64,000 nt of DNA from positions 52,462 to 116,461 of IMG/VR virus record IMGVR_UViG_3300012984_000014, one strand, 5' to 3'. The notes below the pieces were generated by a model that was not told the origin of the DNA, searched no databases, and saw only the letters and a program-made list of their open reading frames with translations. The stretch is from a virus. Both the position numbers and the translations under genes were made by a program. Of the stretch, positions 19,862-52,451 are shown piece after piece (positions within the stretch are counted from its first letter, which is position 1; the number at the start of each line of letters is the position of its first letter).

Positions 19862-20034
19862 CCGCGGACGAATACGAGGAGCGCTTTGGCTCGAAGCCGC
19901 TGCTGGACGACCTTCAACGGGTGAACTGCTCTCGGCCGGGGACGATCGGTCATCTGCTTTGCGGAGTCTGCGAGGAGTGCAACCGACCTAAGTTCCAGTG
20001 CGATTGCCCCACTAAGTCTCCACAAACTGAATAA
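19858..20034 (+). CDS. 58-residue cysteine-cluster protein
   Basis: A short frame coupled by ATGA to the previous stop and ending at TAA 20032-20034. The second half holds a dense cysteine cluster (CGVCEEC and CDC), typical of a small zinc or metal knuckle. The N-terminus is acidic. It is followed by promoter module P2. Confidence 0.55.
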   Translation: MTADEYEERFGSKPLLDDLQRVNCSRPGTIGHLLCGVCEECNRPKFQCDCPTKSPQTE

Positions 20035-20050
20035 TCGTTCGTGATTAGCA

Positions 20051-20087
20051 AAAAGTTCTCGACCGATGGAAGCATCGGCACTAGAAC
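20051..20087 (+). promoter_or_regulatory. phage promoter module P2
   Basis: AAAAGTT with CTCGAC at 20058-20063, an 18-base spacer containing TGGAAGCA, and TAGAAC at 20082-20087. The predicted transcription start is about 20094, one base before the ATG at 20095, so the transcript should be leaderless. An open frame runs through the promoter from GTG 20041, but promoter conservation argues against translation from there. Confidence 0.75.
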
Positions 20088-20094
20088 TAGCTAC

Positions 20095-21222
20095 ATGGAA
20101 GCCACAACCGATACCGTCGAAGTCAAGAAGAAGAAGCCAGGCAAGAAGGGCGAGAAGATCCCGATGAAGGCGGGCCGACCGGTGGCGCCCCCGGCAGAGC
20201 CGGGAACGGGCCGGCGCCCCACGCCTCCGGAATTCGAGGAGACCGAAGTCAAGGGCATCACCTCCGCCTGGCTCATCTGGGTGGGCTCGGAATTCTACAA
20301 GGGCATCGCCGACTGGAGCGACGAGGCCATCGCGCTCGGCATCTCCAAGCGCCTCCCGAATGCCTCGATGGCGCGCCAACTCGCGGCCCCGGGCACGGTC
20401 GTTTTCGTTGCCCACGATGAAGGTGAAAGCCACAGCTGCACCAAGTGCGTCGGAGCGTGTGAGTGTCCGAGTTGCCGCAAGCGCATCAGCGAAATGACCG
20501 CGCTGCGAAACGTGATCGCTTCGATGAAGGCCGCGTTCAAGGGGGACTTCGTGACCGAGGCGCCGCGCGGACTGAAGCGCTTCGAGGAAGTCCGCCTGCG
20601 AACCATCGCAGAGCTCGAAGCCGAGATGAAGGCTTGCGAGGAGTGCAAGGGGAAGGGTTCCATCAAGGCGGGCACCGGCGGAGAGGTGGCGCTCAAGGAC
20701 GGCCGCGTGTGGGATTATCGCACCTACAACTACTGGCTCCACCAGCCCAAGAAGTTCGATCCGGAGACGATGGTGGCCGAGGTCGAAATGTGCGAGACTT
20801 GCGGCGGGAAGGGCGACCTTCCCAATGCTCAAATCTTCGGCGTTTTCGCTCCGGAGCGCGTCGAATACATCGCCCGCGGCGACGAGACGAAGGAGGAGCT
20901 AGAAGCCCTCAAGGGCTTCAGGATCGTGGAGAAGGACGTGCTCAAGACGGAGGCCAAACGCAAGTGCGGTGTCCGGAAGGCCGGCGGCGTGTACGCGGTT
21001 ACTTCTGCCGAGGGCGCGGACGGCGACAAGCTGCTGCAGGATGCCATCAAGGCGGGCCTCGTCAAGCCGGATGGCGCCGAGGTCCACGGCTCGTTCATCC
21101 GCTTTGGGCGCCCTGTCCCGGTGGCAGAGAAGCGCTTCCGTGGATTGAAGAAGATCAACTTGGGAACGGTGCGTGAAGCTGTCGACCAAGCCGAGATGAT
21201 CGCAGAGGCGAGCGAAGCCTGA
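20095..21222 (+). CDS. large zinc-knuckle protein (DnaJ-like CxxCxGxG motifs)
   Basis: A 375-residue protein. A Lys/Pro-rich N-terminus precedes a globular domain. Cysteine motifs follow in the middle: CTKCVGACECPSC, then CEECKGKG, then CETCGGKG. The last two match DnaJ zinc-finger repeats, but no J domain or HPD motif is present. The C-terminal 100 residues are a separate mixed domain. Its stop meets the minus-strand receiver gene end to end (TGATCA). Function unknown. Confidence 0.6.
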   Translation: MEATTDTVEVKKKKPGKKGEKIPMKAGRPVAPPAEPGTGRRPTPPEFEETEVKGITSAWLIWVGSEFYKGIADWSDEAIALGISKRLPNASMARQLAAPGTVVFVAHDEGESHSCTKCVGACECPSCRKRISEMTALRNVIASMKAAFKGDFVTEAPRGLKRFEEVRLRTIAELEAEMKACEECKGKGSIKAGTGGEVALKDGRVWDYRTYNYWLHQPKKFDPETMVAEVEMCETCGGKGDLPNAQIFGVFAPERVEYIARGDETKEELEALKGFRIVEKDVLKTEAKRKCGVRKAGGVYAVTSAEGADGDKLLQDAIKAGLVKPDGAEVHGSFIRFGRPVPVAEKRFRGLKKINLGTVREAVDQAEMIAEASEA

Positions 21223-31457: not shown

Positions 31458-31984
31458 AGATCAGTGAATTCAAGGATCGAGCGCGCGGCGGCGAATTGAA
31501 CTCACCGCTCGTTTCCAGGCGCAAAGTACGCTGGAAAGGGCTTCATATTGGGGTCGATCCTGCTTCTGGCCCGAGTGAAAAAGTTGCTTTCGCCATCGAC
31601 GATCCGCTGGACCGATTGTTCGACCCCGACTTGCCACTTACCGGCGGACCAAAAAAGGGGCGCATTCTCTCTCCAGAGACGCCCACGATGAATGTCAAAA
31701 AACTTCCAAGGCCAGAGGTCGATGCGAGCAAGCTAGACCGCGCGCGCTCCAAGATTGATGATTGGGAGTCTATGGAAGACGACTTGCCATATGTGGCAAT
31801 CGACAAAGGCGGACGCGCGATGACCTGTAGTACTTGCGAGGGTTCGCTCGGCGATCTCGACGTCTTCTGCCCGCGTTGCATGGTGCGCGTAACGCCAGTC
31901 CGTTGTGGCTGCGATTCTACGTGGGACGGGCCGCGCGCCGATTGCGAGCGTTGCGGCGGAACGGGAGTTTGCAAATCAAAATGA
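31454..31984 (+). CDS. zinc-finger hypothetical protein with N-terminal tag
   Basis: A 176-residue protein. MKISEFKDRARGGELNSPLV is the fifth tag-like N-terminus and resembles that of the 26.8-kb protein beyond the first ten residues (GGE..SPLV). The C-terminal third has CSTC, CPRC, CGC and CERCGGTG, a double zinc knuckle ending DnaJ-like. It is the last gene before the non-coding A-tract region. Confidence 0.55.
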   Translation: MKISEFKDRARGGELNSPLVSRRKVRWKGLHIGVDPASGPSEKVAFAIDDPLDRLFDPDLPLTGGPKKGRILSPETPTMNVKKLPRPEVDASKLDRARSKIDDWESMEDDLPYVAIDKGGRAMTCSTCEGSLGDLDVFCPRCMVRVTPVRCGCDSTWDGPRADCERCGGTGVCKSK

Positions 31985-32734
31985 CCAAAAAAATCCACAA
32001 AATGGTTTTGAAAAGCGTTGCATACATGATATTTGAAGTTTGAAATTTTGTGGATTTTTGTCTGGATTTCAACTTGGAATTTGGTTGCAAAATGGCTCGA
32101 AAAATGGCCTGGAAATCAGTCTGAATTTGGTCCCAAAATGGCGCTGAAAATGGCCTGAAATTGCCGCCGAGTTTGGGTTGGAAATGCAGCCGAAAAAGCC
32201 TCGGAATTGCCAGCGAAAAGCCCTCCCGAATTTGGAGCGAAAAGACCTCGGAATTCCGTCCGAAAACGCCTGCAGAATCAGGCGCGGATTCCAACGAAAA
32301 ACCAGGCCTAAATGCATCGCGAATTAGCCCTAGGCGCGCTCGGAGTTGGAAGCCTATATATAGCGCTCCGCGCCCGCGTTGCCCTGTGAATGTGTGCACA
32401 GAAAACGGCTCGAATTTAACGCACACACTTGTGAATAGGCAGAATTTGTGCCTTTGAAAGTCAGAATCGCTCGGATTCGCCGCGCAACCACCACACACAC
32501 AAAAGCGGCCGACCGACCTGATTTTTGCAGATTCCTGGCTAATTTTCCAAATTTGCCGTTGCTGAGCCAGAATTTGGCAGAATTCGGCAGCGACGCGACG
32601 GAACGTCCCTCTGCATGGGACCGCTCCGACTCGGCCACGAGTCCGCCCGGCTAGCTTCCGCGGATTGCCCGTAAGAGGCGGAACGGGCCGCGACTCCGAG
32701 CGCTACCGCCCACGGCAGGCGGATCCAGCCTAAT
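31985..32734. other. 750-bp non-coding region
   Basis: No convincing gene is seen on either strand. The right part (32390-32660) is AT-richer than its surroundings and holds CACACA runs and further gaatTTG/AAA tracts. The left part contains a phased A-tract repeat described separately. A weak plus-strand promoter-like pair (TTGAAA, TATTTG) lies near 32009-32037. Confidence 0.6.
32043..32325. repeat. phased A/T-tract degenerate tandem repeat (about 23 bp unit)
   Basis: Twenty-five A3-5, T3-5 or AATT tracts begin at 32043, 32054, 32066, 32078, 32089, 32100, 32113, 32124, 32135, 32147, 32158, 32172, 32182, 32193, 32205, 32216, 32229, 32240, 32252, 32263, 32276, 32288, 32297, 32310 and 32322. 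The mean spacing is 11.6 bp. Neighbouring units look like a decayed 23-bp tandem repeat (for example two GAATTTGGT..CAAAATGGC units 46 bp apart). Such phasing bends DNA strongly and does not fit a codon frame. Confidence 0.8.
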
Positions 32735-32806
32735 ATCCACAAAGTTGAGAAAAAGAACGGCGCTACCAAAAAAGTTCTCGACTTGTGGAAGCAGAAGCCT
32801 TATGGT
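32735..32806 (+). promoter_or_regulatory. phage promoter module P5 with operator arms
   Basis: ATCCACAA at 32735-32742 faces TTGTGGAA at 32783-32790. CTCGAC is at 32777-32782, followed by an 18-base spacer and TATGGT at 32801-32806. The predicted start of transcription is about 32813. A small hairpin (GGCGG/CCGCC at 32829-32842) and a GAAGGAG site follow before the ATG at 32860. Confidence 0.75.
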
Positions 32807-32859
32807 CTCTCCTGTCGCCGAACGAACCGGCGGGAAGCCGCCCCGAAGGAGAGAAGACG

Positions 32860-33201
32860 ATGGAAAAAGCCGAAAAAGTGGTAGAAGCCGTGAAGTTTGC
32901 CCCGTTCCAGTCGACCGATTGGATGGGTTACGCCGGGTGCGAGGCGTTTCCGGACGGCTCCGAGCCGATTATTGGCTACCTCGAAGTGGACGGGAACCTC
33001 GCGGTGGCGATTCTCGACGGAATCGGCCTCGGGGTCCACGTGGAAGTTCCGACGGGTGACGACGAAGAGATGCACGAGGAGACGGAAACGGAGGAGTATT
33101 ACTGGGACGGGCCCGCGGCCGGAGGGCGCGCCCTCGCGTTCCTTCGCCCGGAGATGGCCTCCGGAGATCTACTCGCCCTAAACCCCACGGTGAAGCCGTG
33201 A
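32860..33201 (+). CDS. hypothetical acidic protein
   Basis: A 113-residue acidic protein. The start is ATG 32860, set by GAAGGAG nine bases upstream; the frame is open further upstream through the promoter. It reads as beta-rich with an acidic loop (TGDDEEMHEETETEEYYW). GTGA/ATGA-type coupling joins it to the next gene. Acidic small early proteins are often host-enzyme mimics, but nothing specific is seen. Confidence 0.6.
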   Translation: MEKAEKVVEAVKFAPFQSTDWMGYAGCEAFPDGSEPIIGYLEVDGNLAVAILDGIGLGVHVEVPTGDDEEMHEETETEEYYWDGPAAGGRALAFLRPEMASGDLLALNPTVKP

Positions 33202-37407: not shown

Positions 37408-37480
37408 TCTACAAAGTTCGTCAAAAAGATTGGTCGAGAGCAAAAAAGTTCTCGACGTGTGGAAGCAGAAGGATTAGGTT
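37408..37480 (+). promoter_or_regulatory. phage promoter module P10
   Basis: A weak left arm (TCTACAAAG near 37408) faces TGTGGAA at 37458-37464. CAAAAAGATTGG and CAAAAAAGTT repeat as in other copies. CTCGAC is at 37451-37456, with an 18-base spacer and TAGGTT at 37475-37480. The predicted transcript starts about 37487, directly at a hairpin. Confidence 0.73.
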
Positions 37481-37487
37481 TCTCTTC

Positions 37488-37506
37488 GAGGCCGGCGGAC
37501 GGCCTC
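37488..37506 (+). other. 5' leader hairpin
   Basis: GAGGCCG and CGGCCTC form a 7-bp stem around a 5-base loop, at the predicted 5' end of the P10 transcript. It precedes a purine-rich leader (CCAAGGACAAGAAA) and ATG 37528. It parallels the hairpins after P4 and P5. Confidence 0.55.
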
Positions 37507-37527
37507 CGAAAGCCCAAGGACAAGAAA

Positions 37528-37953
37528 ATGGAAAAGCTCGAAACCAAAAAAGCCCTCCTCCTCGCCCTCGCCTCCGCCCTTACCGCGCTCGGATGGAGCG
37601 CGACGATTGAACCGCTTCTTCAAATCCTCCGCGTTCCCGGCTTCCCGGCGCTCCGGACCCCGGAAGTCCGTTTCTCCGGCGCGCCGTCGAGTCCAGACGT
37701 GCGCTTCGTTTGGCACGGATACACCGCCAAGAAGCCGGAAACGATGGCCGCGCGCATCGCGGAAGTCCTAAAAAAGGAGGCGGACGCGCAGAAGGAAGCC
37801 GAGGCCAAGCGGACCACGCCGATCCACCTAACGGCCGCGGAACGCGAGGCTTTGGAAGCGCTCGTACAGACGCGGATCGCCTCGCTTCCCGCTTCTTGGC
37901 CCGCTCGGGCCGCGTTGGAGAACGTTCTAGCCAAGCTCGGGGTGGCGTCGTGA
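37528..37953 (+). CDS. hypothetical helical protein
   Basis: A 141-residue protein starting at ATG 37528. A helical N-terminus (KKALLLALASALTALGW) could be amphipathic. A variable middle and a charged C-terminal helix (AAEREALEALVQTRI) follow. GTGA-coupled to the next gene. No family. Confidence 0.5.
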   Translation: MEKLETKKALLLALASALTALGWSATIEPLLQILRVPGFPALRTPEVRFSGAPSSPDVRFVWHGYTAKKPETMAARIAEVLKKEADAQKEAEAKRTTPIHLTAAEREALEALVQTRIASLPASWPARAALENVLAKLGVAS

Positions 37954-38219
37954 GCGATTCCAACAAACTCCCAAGGAATAAGCGCCTTCAGGAGATTCAC
38001 CGCCTCAATCCCCCGAATCCCGTGGCAGAATTCGACAAGAATAAGGCGCGCGCGCTCTCGAAAGTGGCGCACGAGCAGGTATCGGGCCCGCTCCTTTGGG
38101 CTTCCGAGGCAAATTCCAAGAAGGAGCTCCTAGACCAGCTAGAAGCGGCTGAAACGGCGCTAGAGCTCCTCTACGAGTCTGTAAAAAGCTTTCGGCGCGA
38201 CGTCCGGAGGGGCGAATGA
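37950..38219 (+). CDS. small charged hypothetical protein
   Basis: An 89-residue charged protein with a GTG start on the previous stop. A C-terminal helix (KELLDQLEAAETALELLYESV) is probably coiled-coil. No family. Confidence 0.5.
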   Translation: MSDSNKLPRNKRLQEIHRLNPPNPVAEFDKNKARALSKVAHEQVSGPLLWASEANSKKELLDQLEAAETALELLYESVKSFRRDVRRGE

Positions 38220-38365
38220 GCCCCGTAAAGGCAGCGCTAGCGGCGCTCCGCCAGCACGATGGCGACGTCGACAAGGCGACCGCGGAAACCGGCCTCCTTC
38301 GCTCCTTCGTGGCCGACATCGCCCGGCAATTCGCGGACTACCTCCGCCCTCGGACGGCAAAATGA
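38216..38365 (+). CDS. 49-residue helical protein
   Basis: A short ATGA-coupled frame ending at TGA 38363-38365. It reads as a helix-turn-helix-sized helical peptide (AALAALRQHDGDVDKATAET, then LRSFVADIARQF), similar to small DNA-binding helices. Supported by coupling on both sides and a plausible composition. Confidence 0.45.
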   Translation: MSPVKAALAALRQHDGDVDKATAETGLLRSFVADIARQFADYLRPRTAK

Positions 38366-38502
38366 GCGCGCGTATCGTTTCCGCGGCGGACGATTGGCAC
38401 ACCGCCTACATCGGCGCGCGCCGAATCGGCGACTATTCCACTTGGGAGCGCGCTCGCGAGGCGCTCCGCCGACAAGGGTGGTTCGTGGAGGACGGAAAGT
38501 GA
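38362..38502 (+). CDS. 46-residue hypothetical protein
   Basis: A short frame coupled at both ends (ATGA and GTGA overlaps). It contains three Trp residues and a basic helix (WERAREALRRQGW). Function unknown; the coupling is the main support. Confidence 0.45.
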   Translation: MSARIVSAADDWHTAYIGARRIGDYSTWERAREALRRQGWFVEDGK

Positions 38503-38783
38503 AGCCGATTCTCCTTCGGCTCGCCTACCTCCTTGGGAGAAAGGTCGGGAAACTCTCCCGGAAGCGCCAGGAGCGCGCTCGCCGGAGACTCGAAGCGGGC
38601 AGAAACACGAACGGCGCGCTGCCCGCCTTCGTCTTCTCTGGGTGCGTAACGGCCCGAGAACGCCACGAGCCAATATCTATTGCATTCGACTCCCAAGAGG
38701 CGACGATCGCTGACGTAATCGACATCCTAGAGCGAGGAACGCCCAAGGTTAAGCCGCGAAGACGCAGGAGGACCGCGCAATGA
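38499..38783 (+). CDS. small basic hypothetical protein
   Basis: A 94-residue protein with a GTG start overlapping the previous stop. A short hydrophobic start (KPILLRLAYLLGRK) is followed by a strongly basic region (SRKRQERARRRLE), and the C-terminus is again Arg-rich. Probably nucleic-acid- or membrane-associated. ATGA-coupled to the next gene. Confidence 0.5.
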   Translation: MKPILLRLAYLLGRKVGKLSRKRQERARRRLEAGRNTNGALPAFVFSGCVTARERHEPISIAFDSQEATIADVIDILERGTPKVKPRRRRRTAQ

Positions 38784-38947
38784 GCCGAGCAAAGGCCGTG
38801 GAGACGCTCCGGAAGAGGCGCGACCGAGCGCTAAGGGCGCTGAAGTCCCAACGACGGACGGCGAAACCGAGCGAACTAGCCGCCATCGCCGAGAAAGAAG
38901 CGACGATCCAGCGCGCTTACGAGTCCGAGCGCTGGATCTTAGGGTGA
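38780..38947 (+). CDS. 55-residue basic helical protein
   Basis: A short ATGA-coupled frame ending at TGA 38945-38947. It is a continuous Arg/Lys/Glu-rich helix, likely a coiled coil. Support comes from coupling and amino-acid pattern. Confidence 0.45.
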   Translation: MSRAKAVETLRKRRDRALRALKSQRRTAKPSELAAIAEKEATIQRAYESERWILG

Positions 38948-38959
38948 AAAGAGGGCAAA

Positions 38960-39229
38960 ATGTCCAACAATTGGTGCAAAGAGTGTGAGCATTTAGCCAT
39001 CCCGTGCGCGGCCTGCGAGGAGAAGGCCTCCAAAGAGCGGCTCGAACGTCTCGAACGGATCAAAACGCCCATAGCCGCCAGCCTTCCAGGCCGCGCCACC
39101 CATTTCGAGCACACCCCAGGGAAGCTCGCTTGTGGCCTCGTAAGCTCCTCCGCGCTCCGAACGTCCGAGTTTCCAAGAGTTGATTGCAATAGCTGCCGAA
39201 GACGCGCCCTAGCGCGCCGTTTCGTCTAG
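38960..39229 (+). CDS. small zinc-finger hypothetical protein
   Basis: An 89-residue protein preceded by a GAGGG site. CKEC, CAAC and later CNSC form a likely zinc-binding pair, separated by a basic helix. Its stop overlaps a GGGTAATTGGGTTA element at 39229. It is the last gene before the long non-coding region. Confidence 0.55.
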   Translation: MSNNWCKECEHLAIPCAACEEKASKERLERLERIKTPIAASLPGRATHFEHTPGKLACGLVSSSALRTSEFPRVDCNSCRRRALARRFV

Positions 39230-39309
39230 GGTAATTGGGTTAGACGTCGCTCGCCCTCCCCTTGGATGGAGTAGCCGAGCCCCCGAAAGCGGAAAAGAGA
39301 AACGACCCG

Positions 39310-39344
39310 AAGCCGGAAGGAGCCTAACCCGCCCTTTCCGGCTT
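39310..39344 (+). terminator. putative rho-independent-like terminator
   Basis: AAGCCGGAA (39310-39318) pairs with TTCCGGCTT (39336-39344) as a 9-bp stem, followed by TTCC. The loop is 17 bases, longer than usual, and the U-run is short. It lies 80 bases after the last gene of the P10 unit and before the non-coding region. Confidence 0.45.
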
Positions 39345-40122
39345 TCCTGCGTTCCGCTGTGCCCTTCTGCGCGCTTTCGCGCTTCCCGCAGCCCGTCCTC
39401 CACGCCGCCCTCCGGAAGCGCGTTTAAGCGCCTCCTAGCGTCTCCGCGCTCCAACGGCCGATGAGAATCGACCGAGCGCTTGAGCGCTCGCCTCCAGAAA
39501 GCCAACGCCTTGTGCCTAAACGGCCCGTTACGGCGTTTTCGCATCGTCTCATGGACGAGAGTGTGCGGAGCCCGCCGAGACGATTCTTGCCATCGTTCTG
39601 TGCCAAAACGCCCTAAGCGCCCAAATTCGCCCTTTCGCCGATTCCCATCGTTCCGCCGCTCCGCGCCTCCTCGTCCACCCAACCCCTTGGAAGAATCACC
39701 ACCAGAACCGAACGAACCGAGATAGCCTCCGCCGTTCTACGCTGCCCGCCGTTTGCGCGTACGTGTGTTCTTTTACGCTCTCGAACGCCTCCGGAGCGCT
39801 TCGTTGTTCCGCTTTCGAAGGCTCGGAATTGACCAAATCTCGGCTCCGGAAACCCCGTGGATTGTCCGGCACACACATCCTGCAGGCACGCCTTGGCCAT
39901 CCCGGTCCATGGTGCATCCACCTGCCAAACGCCACCATTTTGTGGGTAAGCGGAGGTCGCCTGGATGGAGAATTTGTGGCGTTTCTCGGCTCCCGAGGGT
40001 AAGTCAAGTTACACAGAGAGGGTAATTGGGGTGGAATTGCCGATTGTGTACGTATCGTGGACAACGGTCACGTACGGACCTGAAATGGCCCTGGGAAAAC
40101 TTCTGGCTCCCCAGCGCGTACG

Positions 40123-40397
40123 TAACTCTATTACCCTATTAGGAGGATTGCAATAGTAATATCCATAAGATAATGCATATATCGAGTAACCCTATTACCC
40201 TATGTAACTCTATTACCCTATTAGAGTAGGGCCGACAGCACCTCGGCAAGAAGAGCCTATTAGGGTAATTGGGTTACAGTGGAATGGTAAGAGCGTTACA
40301 TCGAGTCGGCCGCTCGTCTAACCCAATTACCCTAGGGTAAGAGCGTTACGCCTAACCCTATTACCCTATAGCTATACAGTGTAACCCTATTACCCTA
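40123..40397. repeat. iteron-like cluster of TAACCC(T/A)ATTACCCTA
   Basis: Seven copies lie at 40123, 40187, 40205, 40262 (reverse), 40319, 40353 and 40382. Each is a 16-base element built from two TNACCC blocks 8 bases apart. Between them GGTAAGAGCGTTAC occurs twice, at 40286 and 40336. An AT-rich tract (40150-40190) lies among the first copies. The arrangement is that of a replication origin or a multi-site operator. Confidence 0.75.
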
Positions 40398-40466
40398 GCG
40401 CCTAGCGTACGCTATCGTGGATGGTCTATGGTGTCGTGCCTACCTACCTACCACCCACACACCACG

Positions 40467-40480
40467 TATATAGCTATATA
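40467..40480. repeat. 14-bp perfect palindrome
   Basis: TATATAGCTATATA is a perfect inverted repeat in the non-coding region, between the iteron cluster and promoter P11. It could be an operator or a site of local melting. Confidence 0.5.
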
Positions 40481-40669
40481 GTGTCCAAATTGCCTACGAA
40501 ACTGGACAACATGGCTTGATTAGCCACGCCTACCCACCCCACTGTGGATGTTTTCTGGAAAAACCCCCGTGCGGCGCCCATGTCTGGGCGGCTCGGAATG
40601 CACACGCCGCTCGGACACCCCAATGCACATCCACAAAACGAACTTTCTTTCCATAGCGTTGACTTTTCG

Positions 40670-40699
40670 CTCGACGCCCTCCCGCGCATCCACTATACC
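40670..40699 (+). promoter_or_regulatory. phage promoter module P11 (divergent copy)
   Basis: CTCGAC at 40670-40675, an 18-base spacer, and TATACC at 40694-40699. The A-tract and TGTGGAAGCA are absent, and TTGACT (40659-40664) overlaps upstream, so the classification is weaker than for the other modules. ATG 40711 lies five bases after the predicted start. Confidence 0.6.
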
Positions 40700-40710
40700 T
40701 ACCGACACAC

Positions 40711-43428: not shown

Positions 43429-43592
43429 AACTCTCGCTCGCCTTCCGGCAAGCCGCGTGGTTGTGGTACGCCAAGGCCCAGATTCGACGCGACGGCGTTT
43501 GGATTTCACGGCCACCGGTGTTCGAAGAAGGCGAGTGGCAATCCATTCAGCTCAAGCAAGGCATCCAACCTAGTTACCCTGAGGCAAGATGA
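43425..43592 (+). CDS. 55-residue basic hypothetical protein
   Basis: A short GTG-started frame coupled on both sides, ending at TGA 43590-43592. Aromatic and basic (WLWYAKAQIRRDGVWISR). The DNA near its end contains AACCTAGTTACCCTG, close to the regulatory element seen elsewhere. Confidence 0.45.
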   Translation: MKLSLAFRQAAWLWYAKAQIRRDGVWISRPPVFEEGEWQSIQLKQGIQPSYPEAR

Positions 43593-45886: not shown

Positions 45887-46525
45887 ATGAACAAGCTCAT
45901 CCCCATCATCACAATCGCGTTCCTAGTCTTTGGCTGCAGCATGCCGGTCGAACAACCGCCCGCGGGAACGCCCGCGGAGCCGTGTCCGGTCGTGGAACCG
46001 CCGGTCCAGCAGGGCCCCGGCGTCAACCTCCCCACCGAGATTCAGATCTCTCCCGACTTCTCGGCGGAGCAGTTGGCGGGCATCCTTGAGGCTATTCACG
46101 ACTGGAGTGATCGCACGTACGGGGTCGCCAAGCTCAACCCGGTCATCGGTACGAATCCGGACGCGCCCTGCCAGCTCAATCCCGTTGACCACTTCGAGCC
46201 GGAGGAGGTCCACCGTGGCGGGCTCGCGAGCGGAAGCGGCATCCACTGTTCCATCCAGCTGGCGACCTCGGTCATCAAGCTGATCGACGCGCGGAAGACC
46301 TGGAACCAGGACACGGAGATGCTCGAAAAGAGCGACAACGACGTCACCGGCGTCACACGCATCTTCGCCCTGAAGCAGTTCGGGGCCATCTTTGGGATTC
46401 CACAGCTCGAAACGGGTCTGATGAGCGAGAACTACGACAAGAGCGACGACTTGGACGACCCGGCGCTGGCAGCCTTCTGCGGCCTCCACGAGTGCCCGAA
46501 CGGCTTCAAGGCTGGTGCACAGTGA
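45887..46525 (+). CDS. secreted lipoprotein, predicted leaderless
   Basis: A 212-residue protein. Residues 1-15 form a signal peptide (MNKLIPIITIAFLVF) and a lipobox FGC, so the Cys at about 17 would be acylated and the protein tethered to a membrane. The mature N-terminus is Pro-rich, followed by a folded domain with several Cys residues (CQLNP, CSIQL, CGLHEC). ATG 45887 is preferred over upstream GTG/ATG because it follows P12. No enzyme family is recognised. The frame overlaps the next gene start (TGATG). Confidence 0.7.
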   Translation: MNKLIPIITIAFLVFGCSMPVEQPPAGTPAEPCPVVEPPVQQGPGVNLPTEIQISPDFSAEQLAGILEAIHDWSDRTYGVAKLNPVIGTNPDAPCQLNPVDHFEPEEVHRGGLASGSGIHCSIQLATSVIKLIDARKTWNQDTEMLEKSDNDVTGVTRIFALKQFGAIFGIPQLETGLMSENYDKSDDLDDPALAAFCGLHECPNGFKAGAQ

Positions 46526-47649
46526 TGGCCATTGAAGACGGCGAGCGCCTTCTGATTAAGGCCTGGCGTGACACGCTCCGGAAGGGCGACCAAGTTGAGG
46601 TCCGCGACCGCAAGTCACCACGCCCGCGCCTCGGAAAGATCCTGAACACGACGGCGCGCGGTTGCGGCGTCCTGTACGAGAGCAACCACGACGGCTTCGC
46701 CTACTGGAACGACATCTACCCGCGCGCGGACCGGATGGAAAGCCTTCTGAAGAACTTCGACAAAACGGTGAGGCGCGCCACGCAGGGCGGAGCAACGATC
46801 GCCGACGTCGTGAAGATCAAGGGAGGCATCAGCCTAAAAGTCGTCCCTCCGCCGAAGCCGGAGCCCGTGGAAACAGAGCTCCCGCCCGCGCGTACGGCGC
46901 TCCCTTCGATGATTCGCATGACGCCTTCGGATCAGATGCCGACCGGCGCCCATTCGCACGGCCAAATAGTCGGAATGACGACGCCCGAGCCGGCTCCGAC
47001 AGAACCGCCTTCGCATCCCAAGCAGATGCAACCGGCCAAGGTCATCGTCGTGAAGCAGCCCAAGGTGGAACCTCCGCCCGTCAAGGCGTCCGACGTCATC
47101 GATTCGACCAAATTGAATCGCGAACAGATTGCTCAGGTCGAAGCTTCGTTGAAGACGCCCACGCGAACGTTTAAGCGCGGCGACGGGCGCGCCGCTCACG
47201 CGCTGACAGACATCGCCATCGCGCTCCGGACCGAACGGATCCGACGCGGCGAAACGCAGCGCGAGGCGTCCGTCACGTTGCGGATCTCCGCGCCCGTCCT
47301 CTCCCGGCTTGAGCTAGGCGTCGACCATCCGACGGATGACCAGCTGCTTTGCTACGTGGAACATTACAAGATGGACTTGAACACGCTCCTCCGCGCACGC
47401 GACGGACAAGAGGAGAACGTGCCCGAGGAGCCTCCGGCGAAGGTCGATCACATCGCGCCCGTCGGGCCTCCGCTCGCGCTTGTGATTCCGGAGCCCGAAC
47501 CGCCGAATGAGCGGCTGGACTGGCTCATGGACGTCATCGACTTCACCGAGCGTCTCAAGATCGCCATCCCGTTCCCGTCGGACGCCGAGAAGCGCCGTGC
47601 TTGGTACAAGGCAGCGCTGATGATGTTCGAGGTCCAAAATGGAAAGTAA
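46525..47649 (+). CDS. XRE/Cro-type helix-turn-helix protein with long linker
   Basis: A 374-residue protein. Residues 1-110 are a separate N-terminal domain (KGDQVEVRDRKSPRPRLGKI). A long Pro/Lys/Glu-rich linker follows. Residues about 225-295 match an XRE/Cro HTH: IALRTERIRRGETQREASVT, then LRISAPVLSRLELG. The C-terminus is Pro-rich and then helical. It is the most obvious transcription-factor gene near the CTCGAC promoter array. It would be co-transcribed from P12 with the lipoprotein. Confidence 0.65.
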   Translation: MAIEDGERLLIKAWRDTLRKGDQVEVRDRKSPRPRLGKILNTTARGCGVLYESNHDGFAYWNDIYPRADRMESLLKNFDKTVRRATQGGATIADVVKIKGGISLKVVPPPKPEPVETELPPARTALPSMIRMTPSDQMPTGAHSHGQIVGMTTPEPAPTEPPSHPKQMQPAKVIVVKQPKVEPPPVKASDVIDSTKLNREQIAQVEASLKTPTRTFKRGDGRAAHALTDIAIALRTERIRRGETQREASVTLRISAPVLSRLELGVDHPTDDQLLCYVEHYKMDLNTLLRARDGQEENVPEEPPAKVDHIAPVGPPLALVIPEPEPPNERLDWLMDVIDFTERLKIAIPFPSDAEKRRAWYKAALMMFEVQNGK

Positions 47650-49983: not shown

Positions 49984-49992
49984 GAAGGTTCA

Positions 49993-50006
49993 GGGTAATT
50001 AGGTTC
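49993..50006 (+). promoter_or_regulatory. single GGGTAATTAGGTT element
   Basis: CAGGGTAATTAGGTTC matches the iteron-type element (reverse of TAACCC..TTACCC). A related GGGTAAGAAGGTT sits directly upstream (49979). It lies just upstream of a tiny open frame (50015). Confidence 0.5.
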
Positions 50007-50014
50007 ACCACCCA

Positions 50015-50098
50015 ATGACGAACCTGCGCTGGTCTCTCTTCGCGTCGCTCGCCGTCGCGTTTGTGATCACGGCTGCTGTGCTCGTCCTAGACCCGTGA
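50015..50098 (+). CDS. 27-residue membrane peptide
   Basis: A very short frame from ATG 50015 to TGA 50096-50098. The sequence is nearly all hydrophobic (LRWSLFASLAVAFVITAAVL). Support is its position after a regulatory element and its GTGA junction with the next frame. Could also be an upstream leader peptide. Confidence 0.35.
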   Translation: MTNLRWSLFASLAVAFVITAAVLVLDP

Positions 50099-50106
50099 GG
50101 CGCAGC

Positions 50107-50361
50107 ATGGCACAGAGCGACTTCTTGAAATGGTTCGTAGCTCACCACGGCAAGCCCGTGTTCAAGGATCCGAGCGAGGCGCAGGCGGCCCGGGACAACT
50201 TGAACTCCGCGCGCAACATGCTCACGGCGCTCGAACGCGAGATGCGACGCCACGACGAGTACGAGGCGCGCAAGCAGTCGGCCTGTTACGCCTGGAACGC
50301 GAAGCCATCCCGGTCTATGGCGAAACCGCTGGCCAAGTGCCGCGCTCGTCGCCCACGATAG
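50107..50361 (+). CDS. small basic hypothetical protein
   Basis: An 84-residue protein. ATG 50107 with GAGG six bases upstream is preferred over GTG 50095, which overlaps the previous stop. A helix (EAQAARDNLNSARNMLTALE) precedes a basic C-terminus. No family. Confidence 0.5.
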   Translation: MAQSDFLKWFVAHHGKPVFKDPSEAQAARDNLNSARNMLTALEREMRRHDEYEARKQSACYAWNAKPSRSMAKPLAKCRARRPR

Positions 50362-50531
50362 TTCCAAGAGCCTACTTACCCACCCAAAAAACCGCACTTA
50401 CCCGAGCAGGGTAATTGGGTTTGTTGAATGAAGCGACATAATTCATCGCAAACGACAAGCGCGGGTAAGTAAGTTAGGCGCATCCAAACTGCATCGTTCT
50501 CGCAAGTGAGCAAAACAGGAGAAAAAACGAG
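50362..50531. promoter_or_regulatory. intergenic region with GGGTAATTGGGTT-type elements
   Basis: 170 bases without a gene. CAGGGTAATTGGGTTTG lies at 50408-50424, with partial copies TACTTACCC (50376), CACTTACCCG (50395) and GCGGGTAAGTAAGTTAG (50461). TTGGGT, an 18-base spacer and TAATTC (50415-50444) could be a promoter for the next gene. An AGGAG site lies near 50518. Confidence 0.5.
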
Positions 50532-52159: not shown

Positions 52160-52451
52160 TATGCACTTTTTTAAGCACCCTCTGAGTCGTCTGGACACAT
52201 ACTATGTGTTGCTTCTCAACAAAGACGCCATGGTTACATGCTGGGAGGACGCAGAAGGACGTTGGCGCGCCGGCCTTTCCGGGGCGCGAAGTGATGGACA
52301 GATCGTCACAGCGACGGGGAGAACGCCGCGCGAAGCTCTGCGCGTCCTGGAAAAGAAGACGCTAAAGGCCATAGGCGCGTTCGTTTCCACATTTTCATCC
52401 ATACTGCGCGCAGCAGGAATCTACTGGCGCACCTCGATCCTGGGCAAATGA
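52128..52451 (+). CDS. hypothetical protein
   Basis: A 107-residue protein. ATG 52128 has a strong AAGGAAGAAG site; ATG 52161 is an alternative. A basic start, a Trp-rich middle (CWEDAEGRWRAG) and a helical C-terminus follow. No motif. ATGA-coupled to the next gene. Confidence 0.5.
   Translation: MTTERRKNERNMHFFKHPLSRLDTYYVLLLNKDAMVTCWEDAEGRWRAGLSGARSDGQIVTATGRTPREALRVLEKKTLKAIGAFVSTFSSILRAAGIYWRTSILGK

Follow-up and report, generated by a model that had tools for sequence, protein, structure and literature searches.

A noncoding iteron cluster that may serve a metagenomic tailed phage as a second, oriR-like origin

A cluster of repeats in a long noncoding gap of this phage genome represents, with a probability that we put at roughly two in three, iterons that are bound by the phage's own initiator and that form an oriR-like second origin or a fork-switch site. 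The sequence evidence for this reading consists of the array itself, a motif that links it to the spacer between the initiator genes, paired arrays in relatives, and the syntenic position of a related array in one relative (G012). From these we infer protein binding, melting and firing at the array.

Results

The window analysed here is a stretch of 64,000 nucleotides, bases 52462-116461 of a virus record of 116,461 bases. Positions are those of the window unless they are given as record positions. The record encodes a DnaE-type polymerase, a UvsX-like recombinase, SbcCD, a large terminase and a portal, which identify a tailed phage, and one strand carries nearly all of its genes. Gene calling relied on a codon script of simple design in place of a trained gene finder. 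When known phages were searched, no DNA match to the array region was found. GIY-YIG and NUMOD3 domains occur in two genes of window 1-33600, which are likely homing endonucleases.

Repeat array

Nine copies of one 17-base element lie within 40122-40397, in both orientations and at irregular spacing. The earlier note had counted seven copies of TAACYCWATTACCCTA in 40123-40397 and two copies of GGTAAGAGCGTTAC. Both counts were confirmed: five of the seven are perfect and two have one mismatch, and GGTAAGAGCGTTAC occurs at 40286 and 40336. Because the GGTAAGAGCGTTAC-type element is the main site reversed (GTAACGCTCTTACC), the array is a single family of nine sites, and TAAC-N4-TTACC is common to GTAACCCTATTACCCTA and GTAACGCTCTTACC. 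The main word has 12 matches in the window, compared with 0.08 expected from dinucleotide shuffles of the window.

Six iterons (repeats of the initiator-binding type) are on the plus strand: 40122-40138 (GTAACTCTATTACCCTA, a TAACYCWATTACCCTA match at 40123 with one mismatch), 40186-40202 (GTAACCCTATTACCCTA, perfect match at 40187), 40204-40220 (GTAACTCTATTACCCTA, match at 40205 with one mismatch, 18 bases past the preceding iteron), 40318-40334 (CTAACCCAATTACCCTA, perfect match at 40319), 40352-40368 (CTAACCCTATTACCCTA, perfect match at 40353) and 40381-40397 (GTAACCCTATTACCCTA, perfect match at 40382). The three on the minus strand are 40261-40277 (GTAACCCAATTACCCTA, perfect TAACYCWATTACCCTA match at 40261), 40283-40299 (GTAACGCTCTTACCATT, which contains the GGTAAGAGCGTTAC at 40286) and 40333-40349 (GTAACGCTCTTACCCTA, which contains the one at 40336). 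The repeated words of the cluster number 9 to 11, with two outliers beyond 40123-40397. One is an iteron CTAACCCAATTACCCTA at 39227-39243 on the minus strand, 0.9 kb ahead of the cluster; the other is a weak copy, CCACCCCAATTACCCTC, at 40018-40034, also on the minus strand.

Each element had also been described as a direct repeat of (T)TACCC at 8-base spacing. This periodicity is present in the main element only; relatives do not keep it and share TTACC as a common core. An 8-base periodic tandem of TTACCCTA occurs in a viral contig of 47% GC (L126:1168-1222), for which no link to this phage was found.

Gap, AT-rich stretch and GC skew

The array is held in a long gene-poor gap at 38948-40710, as delimited by codon-based gene calls, Rfam and synteny with G012. 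Only two marginal ORFs of 32-36 codons were called in it. The gap of about 1.5 kb without convincing genes stands as first described, with one marginal 32-codon call in approximately 39.1-40.7 kb. An Rfam search of the gap matched no family and no known RNA element. The record's largest uncalled stretch is elsewhere, among structural genes (L094:7281-9177), and looks like a repetitive glycine/alanine-rich reading region rather than true noncoding DNA.

An AT-rich stretch at 40139-40186 is a candidate DNA unwinding element. AT content is 70% in the 50 bases from 40165, in the top 0.13% of windows, so the stretch reported earlier is real. Its place is between site one and site two of the array, so that it is flanked by iterons and is not centred.

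GC skew, which had been proposed as a check, did not single out the array. The cumulative skew of the record has no extremum there; its minimum is at about 32-36 kb near the initiator genes and its maximum at about 84 kb (record positions). GC skew is thus ambiguous for origin placement and only suggestive. The skew maximum coincides with a second long AT-rich noncoding gap, at window 31977-32860, which contains repeated CAAAATGGC words and a DnaA-box-like ATATCCACA.

Initiator genes

A gene for a winged-helix protein of 115 aa is located outside the window, at record 37446-37793 (L095:17446-17793). After a 109-base spacer comes the gene of the C-terminal domain, at record 37903-39027 (L095:17903-19027), and the next genes encode a DnaC-like loader (record 39061), a DnaB-type helicase (40023) and a primase. 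The initiator genes are about 53-55 kb from the array. Adjacency of the plasmid Rep type was looked for, and no initiator gene was found beside the array.

The winged-helix protein scored 24.0 bits against Pfam HTH_36, whose cut-off is 25. The C-terminal protein had no significant PHROGs or Pfam match; a PHROGs search of the initiator returned no significant family, only weak replication-initiation matches, and no sequence match to lambda O was found. Among the structural matches of the predicted winged-helix fold are two initiators, 4pt7 (Z 8.7) and 4pql (Z 8.6), and 5kbj, a Rep-DNA complex (Z 7.8). MarR-type regulators score as well as plasmid initiators against this fold, which therefore supports DNA binding but not, by itself, initiator identity. 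The model of the C-terminal protein (pTM 0.54) gave no structural match, which is to be read as an absence only. Among known phages there was no protein match to the C-terminal part of the initiator or to the fused protein of G026, and a search of 84,980 genomes with the C-terminal protein for a host found nothing. We infer a split initiator, in which the winged-helix protein would be the DNA-binding part and the C-terminal protein its partner.

Array word in the initiator spacer

A matrix made from the array alone found few sites elsewhere in a scan of the whole record. Those above 10 bits outside the gap are window 50407, record 37850 and record 37863. The last two overlap each other and lie in the 109-base spacer between the winged-helix and C-terminal genes, with scores of 13.4 and 12.2 bits. 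The whole shuffled genome is expected to hold 0.2 sites of at least 12 bits, and 0 of 5000 spacer shuffles had two sites of at least 10 bits. There are some differences between the spacer sites and the consensus of the array.

Beyond these, a secondary group of weak sites spans 49991-50477 (minus-strand sites at 49991, 50407 and 50461, in two intergenic gaps), with bare TTACCC words at 50376-50402, and a single weaker copy of the array word is present in an intergenic region at 43565-43581 on the plus strand. G012 has a small secondary group (L102:8508-8653) in a roughly matching place; in both phages the group has the Xre-type HTH gene on one side and, on the other, the gene at 52448.

In-gene arrays of relatives

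Relatives were gathered by searching viral contigs with the C-terminal protein, which gave 17 loci. One fragment, L222, has just 423 bases ahead of the match and was left out of the sixteen. A winged helix is encoded directly upstream of the C-terminal domain in 16/16 other loci, mostly in one continuous frame, and a DnaC-like loader is next to the initiator in relatives, where checked.

About half of the relatives have repeat arrays between the two domains: G002, G021, G022, G023, G026, G030 and G004. In G001 two copies lie there. The linker of G002 contains CCAAAGTTTA six times and that of G021 contains GTCGGACTTTCCCAG four times at 22-base spacing. G022 has CCTAGATCC-type words, and G026 and G030 have CA(C/G)TTACC-type words four times, 20-21 bases apart. 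In G004, dense CCAATC/GATTGG words lie between the winged-helix and C-terminal initiator genes (L163:12124-12345); this iteron word is too short and weak for a genome scan, with 90 chance matches expected. The arrays at L183 and L187 were not above shuffles in an automated 9-mer test and were recognised by their regular 20-22 base spacing, then by matrix scans. No in-gene array was clear at L184, L186, L189-L192 and L223/L224. For the relatives, every motif was chosen with the repeats already seen, and so were the matrix thresholds.

Remote arrays of relatives

Two relatives pair the in-gene array with a remote one. In G021 the second array is noncoding and consists of four copies, 22 bases apart, in a gap that precedes the terminase by 5.4 kb; for about 90 bases the in-gene and remote blocks are nearly identical. 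In G026, the in-gene matrix found 21 sites of at least 14 bits in the genome, compared with 0.6 expected, and 15 of them are clustered in 46.6-48.6 kb, which is largely noncoding. A diverged array, with CTAKCCCTATTACGTCG recurring every 17 bases, occupies a 1.1-kb gap in G012. This array is syntenic, since it follows the homologue of the gene upstream of the window array; the G012 contig does not include the initiator region. Exact-word scans of viral contigs otherwise gave mostly unrelated single or simple-repeat matches, G012 alone being informative.

In four phages (this one, G021, G026 and G012) the terminase gene lies downstream of the remote array, and in two of them, this phage and G026, SbcC lies on the other side of it; the group is thinly covered, with three to four remote arrays. 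In G002, G022 and G023, matrix and word scans detected in-gene words only and no remote array, so a remote array is not essential in the group. An AT-rich element ranks in the top 0.1-0.4% at the array and in G012, and is moderate at the initiator spacer (0.6%) and at the G021 remote array. In another related phage, G009, an array of CCACCGGTATGG and GGTATCATACC is found directly ahead of a ParA-type ATPase gene (L173:1-380, contig 20001-20380); array and gene are likely a partition locus.

In a cross test, this 116 kb genome was scanned with a matrix that had been built from in-gene iterons of G026 and G030 alone, eight in all. Its best match was in the initiator spacer (15.7 bits), the second was window 50462 in the secondary cluster (15.4 bits), and the third was the GGTAAGAGCGTTAC element of the array at 40283-40299 (11.7 bits). 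As 8.6 matches of at least 10 bits are expected by chance, the top two are conspicuous, which the third by itself would not be. The spacer site thus belongs to the iteron family of the relatives, and the GTAACGCTCTTACC elements tie the spacer to the array. The earlier note had compared the cluster to a plasmid-type iteron origin. The spacer motif and the paired arrays in two relatives give good comparative support to iteron-like initiator sites, but a phage initiator resembling lambda O or SPP1 G38P is a better model than a plasmid Rep.

Discussion

Rather than being the sole origin, the array probably represents a second site, one of two. In the mechanism that we propose, initiator molecules would occupy all of the array (record 92.6 kb), the neighbouring AT-rich stretch would then open, and the DnaC-like loader and DnaB helicase of the phage would assemble there. 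The two spacer sites may correspond, in degenerate form, to the in-gene origin of lambda-type phages, may serve as an autoregulatory operator, or may do both. If SPP1 is taken as the guide, the remote array would be an oriR-like second origin that may also stall forks and promote the switch to recombination-dependent concatemer synthesis.

It is unlikely that the array is bound by the initiator and yet is no origin, serving instead as a control or titration site or as a pure fork barrier that triggers the concatemer switch. The incA iterons of plasmid P1 are an example of a control or titration site. For SPP1 it has been proposed that forks stall at G38P bound to oriR and that this triggers the change to concatemer replication (PMC6316719, PMC3485210), and a non-origin role here would also agree with the mixed orientations and irregular spacing of the sites and with a skew minimum near the initiator genes, not at the array. 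However, the array has its own AT-rich stretch resembling a melting element, and the initiator spacer, which retains just two overlapping sites, is a weak candidate for the sole origin.

We consider it improbable that the array is a multi-copy operator to which a transcription regulator binds, such as the Xre-type HTH protein encoded at window 46525-47649 (374 aa; HTH region conserved in G012, 41% over 73 aa). The HTH protein is encoded downstream of the array in both phages, and the weak sites away from the array are nearly all intergenic, a scatter that could fit a regulator. Nevertheless, in relatives the same kind of word is found within the initiator gene or beside it, together with remote copies that match, and nine sites in 280 bases without a nearby gene start would be unusual for an operator. 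The in-gene iterons weaken the case for the HTH_31 protein as the binder, and viral contigs yielded no relatives of that protein. It is very improbable that the array is the partition centromere of a plasmid-like prophage: repeat arrays are typical of centromeres, and G009 has one just before its ParA-type gene, but this record has no ParA (PF13614), ParB (PF02195) or integrase match, and a ParABS site was rejected because PF13614 and PF02195 were unmatched.

With initiator-bound iterons as the preferred reading, a tentative history can be suggested. The array may have been duplicated out of the initiator gene and drifted upstream of the packaging genes, becoming the main array here as the initiator split and the in-gene iterons decayed, with iteron word and winged helix changing together between relatives. 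The origin would then have been caught moving within the genome.

An unannotated noncoding repeat cluster is thereby linked to a phage initiator family without a significant PHROGs entry, which suggests SPP1-like two-site replication in a group of 105-117 kb metagenomic phages. Since the paired arrays show the DNA word that each initiator probably reads, initiator-origin co-evolution and origin relocation can be tested by simple binding assays in phages that are uncultured.

In SPP1, oriL is in gene 38 and oriR in a long intergenic region, and both consist of direct repeats and AT-rich DNA (PMC6316719, PMC3485210). This phage resembles SPP1 (G38P, loader G39P, helicase G40P) in having initiator, loader and helicase genes in that order, with repeats beside the initiator gene and loader and DnaB helicase adjoining. 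In both phages, two distant regions of repeats are present, one at the initiator gene and one in a noncoding intergenic region; the AT-rich DNA beside them is here strong at the array and moderate at the spacer. The initiator had no significant PHROGs family. Unlike SPP1, this phage encodes a DnaE polymerase and a primase of its own in a genome of about 116 kb, its initiator gene is split, its in-gene site has two copies and its remote array is larger.

Lambda has iterons in the middle of the O gene, an adjacent AT-rich region and the helicase loader gene next (PMC5043065, PMC7466680). As at lambda ori/O, iterons in this group are placed between the presumed DNA-binding and partner-binding parts, and the relatives share with lambda O and SPP1 gene 38 the order of binding sites inside the initiator gene followed by the loader gene. 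The lambda iterons are 19-bp inverted repeats bound by dimers, and, unlike in this phage, no second remote array is described in the cited accounts (PMC5043065, PMC7466680). The PLE satellite of Vibrio cholerae has a RepA_N initiator and noncoding repeats needed for its replication (PMC7145576). That initiator has an N-terminal winged helix of the same structural class as 4pt7/5kbj, as here; PLE is a satellite, not a complete phage, and its RepA_N family resembles this initiator at fold level only.
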